A stretch of 34,506 nt of DNA from Treponema sp. (GTDB lineage: Bacteria > Spirochaetota > Spirochaetia > Treponematales > Breznakiellaceae). Location: contig JAITRH010000092.1 in assembly GCA_031288495.1 (NCBI GenBank), positions 1-34,506 on the forward strand. Reading direction: 5' to 3'. Of the stretch, positions 9,757-33,865 are shown one piece after another. A program made the position numbers and the translations under genes. Under the pieces are notes generated by a model that saw only the letters and a list, made by a program, of their open reading frames with translations, made no database searches and was not told the DNA's origin. Numbering within the stretch: the stretch's first letter is position 1; the number at the start of each line of letters is the position of its first letter.

Positions 9757-11589
9757 TTATTCGCTTATAAAGACCATATCCGTTTCAGGGATCCGCACCG
9801 ACGAGAGGGTGAGGAGCACCGGCTCATTCGGTTCCAGGTCCCTTTTGACGGGTACCTGGGTCTCTACGCCCAGGGCGGGGATCATGATAAGGGAGCGGCT
9901 GCCTCGCTTTTCCAGCATCACCCCTTCCCAGGAGGAGCCTTTTTTATCCGATAAATACACCGCAGTCCAGTGGGCCCGGGAAGCCCGCTCCGCCTGTACC
10001 GTGGCAAGAGCCGCGGCTTCCCCTGCGCCAAGCCTGAGGAGCAGCTCCTCTTCCCCCAAAGGGGCTTTTTGCCGCAGCAAAGCCCGGATCTGCTGGTGGG
10101 CCAAGAGGTCTGTATACCGGCGCAAGGGGCTCGTAACTTGGGTATATACATCCAGCCCCAAGCCCCAGTGGATTCCCGGTTTCACCGAAAGGCTTCGGGG
10201 GTGCATGCAGCGGCGAAGCTGGTAGGAACCGGCCATACCGCCCAGCGGGACATGGGGAAGTTCGCCGGTTTCCTGGTTTACATAGGGGAAGGGAAGGCGC
10301 CGCCGCAGGGCCCAGCGGGCGGCGCCTTCCCCGGCAAGGAGCATACATTCCCGGACCACCTCCGCAGACGCATAGGCTGCCAGGGGTTCAATGGATACCT
10401 GCCCCTCGGAAACCGTGATATGCACTTCGGGGAATTCCATGAACACCGCCCCGGCGGTACGCCTGCGGGCCAGGTTCTTTTCCGCTATCCTGAAGAGGGC
10501 CCTTAATTCCGGGGCCTGTGGGCCGTGCCCCTTAAGCAATGCGTCGGCCTCTTCGTAGGTCAAACGGCTTACCTTGACCCAGGAACGGAAGACCGCCGTT
10601 TCCATCACCGCTCCCGCTTCATTGAGGCTTATCTTGAAGGAGAGCGCCGGGGAGACCGCTTCCAGGCCTAAGGCATACAAGGAGCGGGCTTCTTCGGCAA
10701 GCATCATGGACGCTCCTTCGGGAAGGTAGAGGGTGGCCCCACGGTTCCGGGCTTCCCCATCCTCCGGGCTTCCGGGCAGGATCGAGGCCCCCGGATCCGC
10801 TACATGGACCCACAGACAAGAACCCTCCACTGAAATCGCATCATCCGGATCATTGCTCCAGGCGTTATCAATGGCAAAGGCTTTAAGGTAGGTCAGATCC
10901 ACCCGATCCTCATCCCGGGGAGGAGGGTTTACGGGAATTTTTGCAGACCCCGGGGAGAGGCCGAACCTGAAGGGGTGGGGATTGAGCCAGGGGGTCCAGC
11001 ATCCTGCCTCAAGCAGGACCCTATGGGCGCCCTGGGGAGATTCAGGCATCTTCAGGTCTTTGAGGGTACGGCTTTTATCGGTTTTACCATAGGCCAGGGC
11101 TTCCACATCATGGAGAAACCGGCGATCCTCAGGAAACTTCAGGGTCCGAGCCTTGAGGCGTTCCAAAAAAGCCTCCCGTTCCGCCACGTCCTGCTGTTTT
11201 TCAGTCCGTTTCTGGGTTTCCGCTGCGAGTTCCTCCCGGGACCGGCCCTGTACCTCCTTAAGGGTTCCCGAGAAATACAAGCCCTCCTTTACGAGCCGGT
11301 ACGCGGCCCAGGCGGTACTTCCCGTGTACTCCCCGTAAACCAACTCGGTCAGCTCCTGGAAGGAAACTCTATTCCCTTCCAGCAGTTCCCAGGCAGCCCG
11401 GACATCTGCTTGGGGGAGTTCCTGCTCAAGGCTCTCCAAAGTACAAGGCCCCGGATGGAGCAGTTCAATGTCCTTTTCCCGAACTCGCAGGGATTCGCCT
11501 CCCTCAAGGCATATCCCTATCTTTTCTCCGATGTCCTTTACCAGGGCAGGACGGCTTTTATACACCACAAGACTTCTTTCCCGTATCAT
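9757..11589 (-). CDS. RNase II/RNB-family exoribonuclease
   Basis: RNB-domain motifs AIDNAWSNDPDDAISVEG, HVADPGA, YTQVTSPLRRYTDLLAHQQI. The start is placed at ATG 11587-11589 (MIRERSLVVYKSR); the upstream part of the ORF looks noncoding. Confidence 0.88.
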   Translation of the reverse strand: MIRERSLVVYKSRPALVKDIGEKIGICLEGGESLRVREKDIELLHPGPCTLESLEQELPQADVRAAWELLEGNRVSFQELTELVYGEYTGSTAWAAYRLVKEGLYFSGTLKEVQGRSREELAAETQKRTEKQQDVAEREAFLERLKARTLKFPEDRRFLHDVEALAYGKTDKSRTLKDLKMPESPQGAHRVLLEAGCWTPWLNPHPFRFGLSPGSAKIPVNPPPRDEDRVDLTYLKAFAIDNAWSNDPDDAISVEGSCLWVHVADPGASILPGSPEDGEARNRGATLYLPEGASMMLAEEARSLYALGLEAVSPALSFKISLNEAGAVMETAVFRSWVKVSRLTYEEADALLKGHGPQAPELRALFRIAEKNLARRRTAGAVFMEFPEVHITVSEGQVSIEPLAAYASAEVVRECMLLAGEGAARWALRRRLPFPYVNQETGELPHVPLGGMAGSYQLRRCMHPRSLSVKPGIHWGLGLDVYTQVTSPLRRYTDLLAHQQIRALLRQKAPLGEEELLLRLGAGEAAALATVQAERASRAHWTAVYLSDKKGSSWEGVMLEKRGSRSLIMIPALGVETQVPVKRDLEPNEPVLLTLSSVRIPETDMVFISE

Positions 11590-11753
11590 CAGGGTGAGTC
11601 TAGCATGTACCGTACAGCCTGAGAAGTAGGCGCTTCTATAAGCCCGAAGGGGACCCGGTATCATCCATGCAGGAACAGGACCCTGCCCTTGCATACCGTG
11701 AATCCGGCCATACGCAAAAAGTCCGCCGGACCCTTGTTCCGCCGCAGGATAAA

Positions 11754-11775
11754 GGCATGGGAATTTTCCCATGCC
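11754..11775. repeat. Near-perfect palindrome GGCATGGGAA-TT-TTCCCATGCC
   Basis: 10-bp inverted arms with a 2-nt centre, between the RNB gene and the CTAG array; possible operator or terminator. Confidence 0.6.
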
Positions 11776-11841
11776 TCGGTGGAACCGCCCCAGGGTCAGC
11801 AAGGTACGAAATGGTGTCCCCTGATGTGGAAGGCCCACCTA

Positions 11842-12154
11842 CCTAAGGTGTGGGGACCCACTAAACTAGGGTGTGGGGCACACCTAACTAGCCCCAAGGG
11901 GTCGGGGTGAACTAGCCCCCGGGAGTCGGGGCCTAGTAGCCCCAGGAGGTCGGGGCCAACTAGGGTGTGGGGGCACACCTAACTAGCCCCGGGGGGTCGG
12001 GGTGAACTAGCAACCGGGAGTCGGTTCCAACTAGCAACCGGGGTCGGTTCCAACTAGTAACTGGAGTCGATTCCTACTAGCAACTGTAGGACGCACTCAA
12101 CTAGGGTGTGGAGGGCACATAAGCCTATGTGGAAGACATACATAAGCCTGTGCC
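11842..12154. repeat. CTAG-phased array of hairpin-forming degenerate repeats (period 21-27 nt, mostly 22-24)
   Basis: CTAG at 11866, 11888, 11912, 11933, 11960, 11983, 12007, 12031, 12054, 12077 and 12101. Inter-CTAG units are inverted repeats such as GCCCC…GGGG, CAACC…GGTT and GGTGTG-GGG-CACACC. Degenerate half-units flank the core on both sides. Confidence 0.9.
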
Positions 12155-12265
12155 TTTGATACGGTCTGTAAGCGTAAGGCCCAGGGCTCTGCAAACCCTC
12201 CCCTTCCCCGGCCGGGCGCCCCTGTCCCTGGTCGGCGGAACGAGGCGGAGGATATATACTGCTAT

Positions 12266-12283
12266 GGGGGCCGAAAGGCCCCC
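12266..12283. repeat. Perfect GC-rich hairpin GGGGGCC-GAAA-GGCCCCC downstream of the nifH-like stop codon
   Basis: 7-bp perfect stem with a 4-nt loop; no clear T-run on the minus strand, so it may be a processing or stability hairpin rather than a terminator. Confidence 0.6.
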
Positions 12284-12316
12284 CCGGAGATTTTCTTGAC
12301 CGCGGAAGGGGTTTCC

Positions 12317-13204
12317 CTATATATTGGCGCTCAGTTCTTCGCGGATTTCCCCTTTTTCTATGGCCAGCAGGTACTGCCCCCACCTGGCCGCCCATTCCCG
12401 CAGTTCCTGAATCCCCAGCGGGGAAGGGGTCTTTGATTCGGTATGGGCGGCGATTCTCTCCGCCAGGTCCAGGTATATACGGGCCTGAGCCGAATCCGGG
12501 GCTGCTTCCACCGTGGTCTTCCCCTGGAGCTCGCATTGGGTAACCGTTACCGAACGGGGAATGTAGGCGACCACCTGGGTCTTGGTCTTGGCCGCAAAGT
12601 CGTCCACAATTTCTTTTGCATAAGGCCGGTTGATGGAATTGGCAATAAGCCCGCCAAGGAGCGCGCCCCCGGCGTTGGAATACTTTTGGATGCCCCGGAA
12701 CAGATTATTCGCCGCATAGAGGGCCATGAAGTCCGCAGAGGACACGGTGAACACATGCTCGGCAATACCTTCCCGAATGGGCATGGCAAATCCGCCGCAG
12801 ACCACATCCCCCAGGACATCGTAAATCACAAAGTCCAGCTCCAGGGCTTCGAAGATCCGCTGCTGCTTAAACAGTTCCACCGCCGTGATGATGCCCCGGC
12901 CCGCACAGCCTACCCCCGGCGCAGGCCCTCCGGCTTCAACGCAGTAAATGCCGTTATACCCCCTGAAGATGACCTCCCGGGCATTAACCTGGCTCTTTTC
13001 CCGGAGGGTATCCAGCACGGTGGGGATATACGTCCCGTCCCGCAGGGTATTGGTGGAATCGCTTTTCGGATCGCAGCCGAACTGCATCACCTTGTACCCA
13101 AGCCGTGAAAGGGCCGCGCTCAAATTCGAGGTGGTGGTGGATTTTCCTATACCCCCCTTGCCATAAATGGCAATCTGCTTAGCTTTTATGGTTCCTGTTC
13201 CCAT
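12317..13204 (-). CDS. NifH-like nitrogenase reductase component (nitrogenase-like, probably group IV)
   Basis: P-loop [33 protein letters not shown] and [18 protein letters not shown], so both 4Fe-4S ligand Cys are present. Confidence 0.93.
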
Positions 13205-23235: not shown

Positions 23236-24168
23236 CTATCCTGTTAATACAGGAATATTACGCAGTATAAGCTGTTTATAAGTCATGGTAGTACTTGTAG
23301 TACAGGCATATAACAGTCGATTAAAGAGTTCAGGGGCAACCCGACGGCGATTGGTACGAAAACAAAATTCTGAAAGATATGCGGATAAATATTTGGTTCC
23401 TAAACCATGATAGGTACCTGCAATAAATGCTTTTGCATTGGAAATCATCGTATGGAGCCATTTCAAATGGTCGGGATTCTTTCTATCGTACAACGACAAA
23501 GTCCTACAACGGTATTTTCCATCTGTCATGGCCTTCATATAAGCACGATAAGCCTCGCTATTGATCGTCGATCCCTCAGCGATGTGTTTATTCACAAAGT
23601 CTACCAGACCCTGATCTTGCTTGGTTTTAATAACATCCATTTTTATATATTGGGGTCTGCCTTGTTTATCTAGGGATATACCTGCTACTACCGGTACGGT
23701 ATGAGTGCTGCCGATCCGTTTGCCCTCTTCTCTAGGAGCATTAAAGGATGTTTCGTCTAATGCGACGATTCCTGCAAGCTGATATTGGGCGTCGCAATCC
23801 CCCATAGCTTTCCTAATCTTATGTAACATGAGCCATGCTGCTTGATATGACAGGTTCAGTTCCGCAGTGAGCCGCGTCGCAGAAATCCCCCGTTTATCGT
23901 GTGCCGCTAAGTAGATGGCCCAAAACCATTTATGCAAAGGTACATGGCTTCTATGGATTATGGTTCCTGCGCTTACGGAAGTCTGATGCTTGCAGGCTTT
24001 ACATTCATAACGTTTTCGTTTTTCTATAAGATAATAGGTCGTATTTCCACATCGGGGACATATAAAACCATGGGGCCATTTGATATGGAACAGGTGTTTT
24101 CTACATTTTTCTTCGGTGTCGAACTTTTTTTGAAAGTCTAACAGGGTCATCTTTTCGTGTTTTGCCAT
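23236..24168 (-). mobile_element. IS1595-like (ISXO2-type) transposase with N-terminal zinc ribbon
   Basis: Zn ribbon CPRCGNTTYYLIEKRKRYECKACKHQTSVSAGTIIH; DDE-type core VALDETSF and NAKAFIAGTYHG…EFCFRTNRR. Terminal inverted repeats were not resolved by eye. Confidence 0.85.
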
Positions 24169-33802: not shown

Positions 33803-33865
33803 GCGTAAGGACTTGATCGTGCCACGCGTAAGGGCTTGATCGCGCCACGCGTAAGGACTAAAGGG
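33803..33865. repeat. 23-nt tandem repeat (GCGTAAGGACTTGATCGTGCCAC type), about 2.7 copies
   Basis: GCGTAAGG starts at 33803, 33826 and 33849, exactly 23 nt apart. Confidence 0.85.

Follow-up and report, generated by a model that had tools for sequence, protein, structure and literature searches.

REPs have been described with a GTAG or a CGTC tag, and the GTAG kind has a dedicated RAYT. RAYTs act on hairpins of ~23 nt and cut between C and T; a mutant substrate carrying CTAG was still cut by one of them, though less efficiently (PMC8266576). Head-tail REP dimers are absent or rare in most genomes, and a related kind, the TIRtrons, consists of RAYT relatives flanked by terminal inverted repeats (TIRs) together with TIR repeat families; the TIRYTs described there all retain HUH and Tyr (PMC3733652).

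The window analyzed here, a stretch of 34,506 nt that forms contig C180 of a 2.72-Mb, 83%-complete assembly, treponeme-like and probably from a termite-gut spirochaete, carries an array of hairpin units joined by CTAG. As in REPs and BIMEs, the units are intergenic palindromes of 20-50 nt in many copies; a tetranucleotide marks the foot of the stem, units of different types alternate in clusters, and the stems vary from species to species. In contrast to REPs and BIMEs, the foot is a CTAG common to adjoining units; GTAG overlaps 32 of 126 units and GGAG 9 of 126, so that a GTAG (or GTGG/CGTC) foot is not the rule. Moreover, the arrays run head-to-tail instead of pairing units head-head or tail-tail, they form a 47-nt higher-order repeat of two types, A and B, and, in the 83%-complete assembly, a search for an active RAYT bordered by the same repeats turned up no more than two Y1 relatives that lack HUH. 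The spacing near 24 nt and the palindromes are reminiscent of CRISPR, but the repeats are contiguous, with no unique spacers. There is also a likeness to TIRtrons and TIRYTs, since a RAYT-like cassette and a small element of ~50 copies share the inverted ends GTCAACAnGnTAAGG, although the gene family lacks HUH and Tyr and yet is multicopy. The small element, non-coding and with a hairpin-rich interior, also resembles MITEs that carry tandem repeats inside or beside them, but the arrays occur without it too and are more uniform than its interior.

The array between the nifH-like and RNB genes

The array sits 3′ of the nifH-like gene and 5′ of the RNB gene; these two genes lie on the minus strand (Table 1). 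The original prediction had listed eleven CTAGs and ten spacings, and both lists matched exactly: CTAG starts at 11866, 11888, 11912, 11933, 11960, 11983, 12007, 12031, 12054, 12077, and 12101, at distances of 22, 24, 21, 27, 23, 24, 24, 23, 23, and 24 nt. On the plus strand, the unit order is A B B B' A B C C C C/A, and TRF independently recovered periods of 23, 24, and 47/48 nt. As had been suspected, CTAG is scarce, with 35 occurrences in the window versus 98.8 expected from dinucleotide shuffles. Because 11 of these 35 are packed into the 239 bp of the array, the regularity is beyond chance. The array had been placed at 11842-12154; its recognizable part covers 11866-12104, and the flanks, at about 11831-11865 and 12105-12153, turned out to be decayed units. 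Within the latter, positions 12122-12152 are 90% identical to another locus of the same genome (L312).

Table 1. Features in and around the CTAG-phased array
Feature	Position	Strand	Basis or remark
RNB-domain exonuclease gene	9757..11592	-	context; start read as ATG at 11592
Intergenic region	11593..12316		724 bp
Right ("R") end of inverted-repeat element	11788..11826	+	89.7% identical to L312/L079 copy, E 7e-9
Decayed units, other array border	about 11831..11865	-	
CTAG-phased hairpin array, 10 complete units	11866..12104	-	CTAG positions, TRF, DNA fold z -6.1
A-type unit (GGTGTG..CACACC)	11866..11887	-	
B-type unit (CCCC..GGGG)	11888..11911	-	
B-type unit, 21 nt	11912..11932	-	junction shifted by 3 nt
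B-type unit, 27 nt	11933..11959	-	complement of 3-nt shift in 21-nt neighbor
A-type unit	11960..11982	-	
B-type unit	11983..12006	-	
Three C-type units (CAACC..GGTT)	12007..12076	-	
Hybrid unit, C-like left arm and A-like right arm	12077..12100	-	hairpin broken, 2/5 pairs
Decayed A-like unit and two 13-nt repeats	12101..12153	-	ACATAAGCCTATG / ACATAAGCCTGTG
nifH-like gene	12317..13204	-	context

In two relatives of the same genus, G009 and G002, a nifH-like gene is followed by the RNB gene in the same order (NifH 94.6% and 93.2% identical, respectively), and the gap between them is array-free and about 170-180 bp long, versus 724 bp here. As judged from these two orthologous gaps, the array is a recent insertion or expansion at this site; the other relatives fetched have no nifH at this place and are uninformative on its age. 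The inserted region is bracketed by a 13-nt inverted repeat, CCTTGTTCCGCCG / CGGCGGAACGAGG, at 11732-11744 and 12233-12245, 488 nt apart. Searching Rfam 15 at the gathering score gave no match to the array, one tRNA being the sole match in the window, and phage and plasmid collections gave none to the array either. A pattern match in IMG/VR (L318) proved to be an unrelated phage carrying chance CTAGs and was discarded.

Hairpin units and their dispersal

Each unit of 23-24 nt reads as CTAG, ~1 nt, one arm of a 5-bp stem, a loop of 4-5 nt, the other arm, and ~4 nt leading to the next CTAG. The GGTGTG..CACACC, CCCC..GGGG, and CAACC..GGTT units that had been proposed were all present, and a single hairpin register was common to types A (GTGTG/CACAC), B (CCC/GGG), and C (AACCG/CGGTT) and to rarer types, the arm changes being compensatory in that one register. 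Folded as DNA, the minus strand of the array formed a chain of small hairpins at -56 kcal/mol versus -35.3 ± 3.4 for shuffled sequences (z -6.1; 0/200 shuffles), and it did so as RNA too (z -4.3; 0/200 shuffles). An ungapped alignment of 37 distinct 24-nt units gave a covariation score of 0.634, versus 0.195 ± 0.031 when shuffled and at most 0.236 when slid, with 76.8% of cells paired versus 50.9 shuffled and at most 50.3 slid, figures that overstate independence because the units are mutually related and the register was picked after inspection. The slid controls preserve the relatedness of the units, yet they score far below the real register. In the same alignment, two-sided changes were seen at all five stem pairs, and the fourth pair was weak (unpaired in 23 of 37 units, mostly of type B). 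A separate count on 126 units, taken from arrays only, agreed with this result (Watson-Crick fraction 0.69-0.77 versus 0.43-0.48 column-shuffled). Folding and covariation thus exceeded shuffled controls, as anticipated. The covariation indicates that hairpins are kept or remade; taken by itself, it leaves selection on structure indistinguishable from palindrome-templated repair or whole-unit copying.

The window array is one of more than 20 dispersed non-coding hairpin arrays in the genome, comprising ~200 units. Indeed, a pattern search found 194 CTAG triples with the array spacing, blastn with the array gave 51 matches, and the stretches fetched were parsed into 23 arrays with 201 units; a stricter CTAG-only rule (at least three CTAGs each) yielded 27 arrays. 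The search for units elsewhere, which the original prediction had put forward, was therefore positive in the host, and among the relatives searched only G008 has unit sequences in common with it. The arrays are intergenic, some of them overlapping short open frames that are mostly just above 100 codons and possibly not genes. Open frames bordered 14 arrays on either side; they were divergent at 6 of these arrays, tandem at 6, and convergent at 2, counts that are approximate because the gene calls are plain open frames. Within an array nearly all units have one orientation, and A (23 nt) and B (24 nt) units alternate, with 102 A/B transitions versus a mean of 64.3 and a maximum of 84 in within-array shuffles.

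We then consider the relatives, a genome set that we take from the isolate codes to be of termite-gut origin. CTAG-phased triples in G006, G013, G019, and G022 stood well above the number to be expected from their phased-GATC control and the background CTAG/GATC ratio, and most other genomes had none. In G000, phased CTAG triples relative to phased GATC ones gave a ratio of 2.3 versus a background tetramer ratio of 0.13 (0.13-0.15 where measured). The comparison among genomes is indicative, as triple counts rise with array length and composition was taken from G000, G006, and G008 only. Stems in these arrays differ from those of the host, for example TACC..GGTA and CGCG..CGCG in L191, where hybrid units also occur. 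More generally, non-coding tandem arrays in stretches of G006, G008, and G000 (L209-L268) cluster at 21 and 23 nt (multiples 42, 63, and 46). Many of them are devoid of CTAG, and since CTAG is rare in the arrays of stretches not chosen for it, CTAG phasing marks a subset and is no general rule. Self-complementarity was significant in 8 of 32 arrays of 21-24 nt, so the idea that all such arrays are hairpins was weakly supported.

The neighboring element and RAYT-like genes

A second repeat, with the motif GTCAACAnGGTAAGGRR, occurs ~105 times in the genome. Many copies face each other in inverted orientation at a distance of about 130-230 bp, giving a small element of ~150-230 bp whose left and right ends are distinct. 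A right end of this element lies next to the window array, its motif GTCAGCAAGGTACGAAA starting at 11795. The two repeats are linked: 11 of the 27 arrays have an element end at most 150 bp away, versus 0.53 expected (Poisson P about 1e-11), and 16 have none within 150 bp. At three loci (L282, L284, and L311), the array is flanked by two directly repeated left ends.

The right end (GGACAAAATTCCTTAACTTGTTGACAG) also terminates a RAYT-like gene cassette (L059). The neighboring element therefore shares terminal inverted repeats with a transposase-type gene, as MITEs and TIRtrons do, but that gene lacks the HUH and Tyr of a transposase: NHIHLL is replaced by PADGFEL/EEGFQLP and the C-terminal Tyr region is gone, whereas intact RAYTs of relatives, which include L333 of G013 and L326 of G008, have both NHIHLL and the C-terminal Tyr motif. 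The loss of NHIHLL was read directly in both host genes and in one G008 copy. These two Y1 relatives, without HUH and catalytic-Tyr region, are those of the host; the 83%-complete assembly yielded no intact Y1/HUH gene, and no CTAG array lies within about 1.5 kb of either relative. TIR-flanked cassettes of this RAYT-derived family were seen in the host (L058 and L059) and in G002, G005, G008, G009, and G022. The family is multicopy, ranging from 2 copies per genome to no fewer than 94 in G022, and, although conserved, it is apparently non-catalytic. Its named relatives come from Treponema and Spirochaetaceae MAGs, and a literature search for RAYTs in Treponema returned unrelated papers only. 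We had considered this gene as the driver of the arrays and dropped it, because genomes rich in the gene are not those rich in arrays: G009 has 45 copies and 0 phased CTAG triples, and G006 has 0 copies and 67 triples. In G013, two copies of GGGTCAGACACAGCAA enclose a CTAG array with a 23-nt period (L333, 2049-2140) that flanks an intact RAYT gene on its 3′ side.

Spread and upkeep of the arrays

We favor, with some reserve, the view that the window array is one local instance of a selfish palindromic satellite dispersed through the genome, REP/BIME-like and mobile, linked with a TIRtron-like element. The observed dispersal, recent arrival, conservation of the hairpins in one register, and link with the inverted-repeat element count in its favor, as do the A/B alternation, the empty sites in relatives, and the RAYT-flanking array of G013. 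The lack of an intact Y1/HUH gene in the 83%-complete assembly, the copy-number mismatch, the 16 of 27 arrays whose nearest element end is more than 150 bp away, and the GTAG count of 32/126 count against it. The satellite would have spread with or by the inverted-repeat element, which shares terminal repeats with the RAYT-like cassette, and arrays may grow or shrink when replication slips or when exchange between CTAG junctions is unequal. What would maintain the hairpins is that every unit passes through a single-stranded hairpin state, most likely in the hands of a putative single-strand nuclease of the Y1 kind cutting at or near the CTAG foot; alternatively, replication bypass might correct one arm against the other. 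We infer cutting at CTAG by a Y1-type enzyme, transfer by the element, and slippage at the junctions from the biochemistry of RAYTs (PMC8266576) and the RAYT locus of G013.

A serious rival is plain slippage with palindrome correction, and it may hold, although we doubt it: slippage would build neutral minisatellites, and quasi-palindrome (template-switch) correction and unit copying would keep the palindromes, with no enzyme or function involved. The A+B higher-order repeat and the head-to-tail orientation are what unequal exchange or slippage typically leaves behind, hybrid units exist (12077-12100 and L191), and so do the 21- and 23-nt non-coding arrays of G006, G008, and G000, many CTAG-free and 8 of 32 self-complementary. 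Yet this leaves unexplained why the arrays are dispersed over many loci, why they go with the inverted-repeat element, and why a scarce tetramer serves as junction (2.3 versus 0.13 in G000). The satellite reading might be taken further, to a new class of CTAG-tagged palindromic satellites of termite-gut treponemes whose single-strand nuclease reads CTAG and hairpin shape and not stem sequence. Arrays would then keep arising in different genera with a common junction and a 21-24-nt period, whatever their stems, and the catalytically dead multicopy RAYT-derived protein would be a binder or regulator. We regard this extension as rather improbable.

On the coding strand the array follows the stop of the nifH-like gene, and it folds well as RNA (z -4.3), which could suggest a functional RNA or transcript-end structure: a hairpin chain that shields the nif-like transcript, terminates it, or is released from its 3′ end by processing. 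We deem this very unlikely, and a nif-specific RNA role unlikely: the array is missing from the orthologous gaps of G002 and G009, and neither a T-tract terminator within it nor an Rfam match was found. Furthermore, members of the family occur where the flanking genes are divergent (6 of 14 arrays), tandem (6), or convergent (2), so the array is not the 3′-UTR feature that had been envisaged. As for the selection for structure that had been proposed, the covarying arms stood, and a function tied to the nif locus did not, given the absence from two close relatives. The fixed CTAG and regular spacing also raise the possibility that CTAG is the recognition core of phased sites on double-stranded DNA, bound by a protein of the nucleoid, partition, or replication type. 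This is hardly tenable, because a spacing of 23-24 nt (period 23.5 nt) amounts to 2.24 helical turns and places successive sites off any single helix face; in addition, the more than 20 arrays are dispersed, variable in copy number, and absent from most relatives, and sequence-specific binding does not explain covarying arms.

The array thus looks like a variant of known bacterial hairpin repeats and not a switch for the nitrogenase-like genes, a caution that covarying hairpins adjoining an operon need not be regulatory RNA. It bears on how hairpin repeats arise and spread in bacteria, and a genome with tens of CTAG-linked arrays, alternating types, an empty site, and relatives with other stems offers material for testing whether structure, sequence, or slippage is the driver.

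Other repeats and mobile sequences were noticed along the way. The window contains a second 23-nt tandem repeat at 33803-33859 (GCGTAAGGACTTGATCGCGCCAC, 2.5 copies, 91% matches) and an IS1595-family transposase gene at 23236-24168. In G008, one and the same end of an insertion sequence (protein start MELSQKQFKQVTPLLPKQRGHVKID), presumably IS5-like, abuts the CTAG of three different arrays (L047, L048, and L052; first ~115 bases), as if CTAG arrays were its target.
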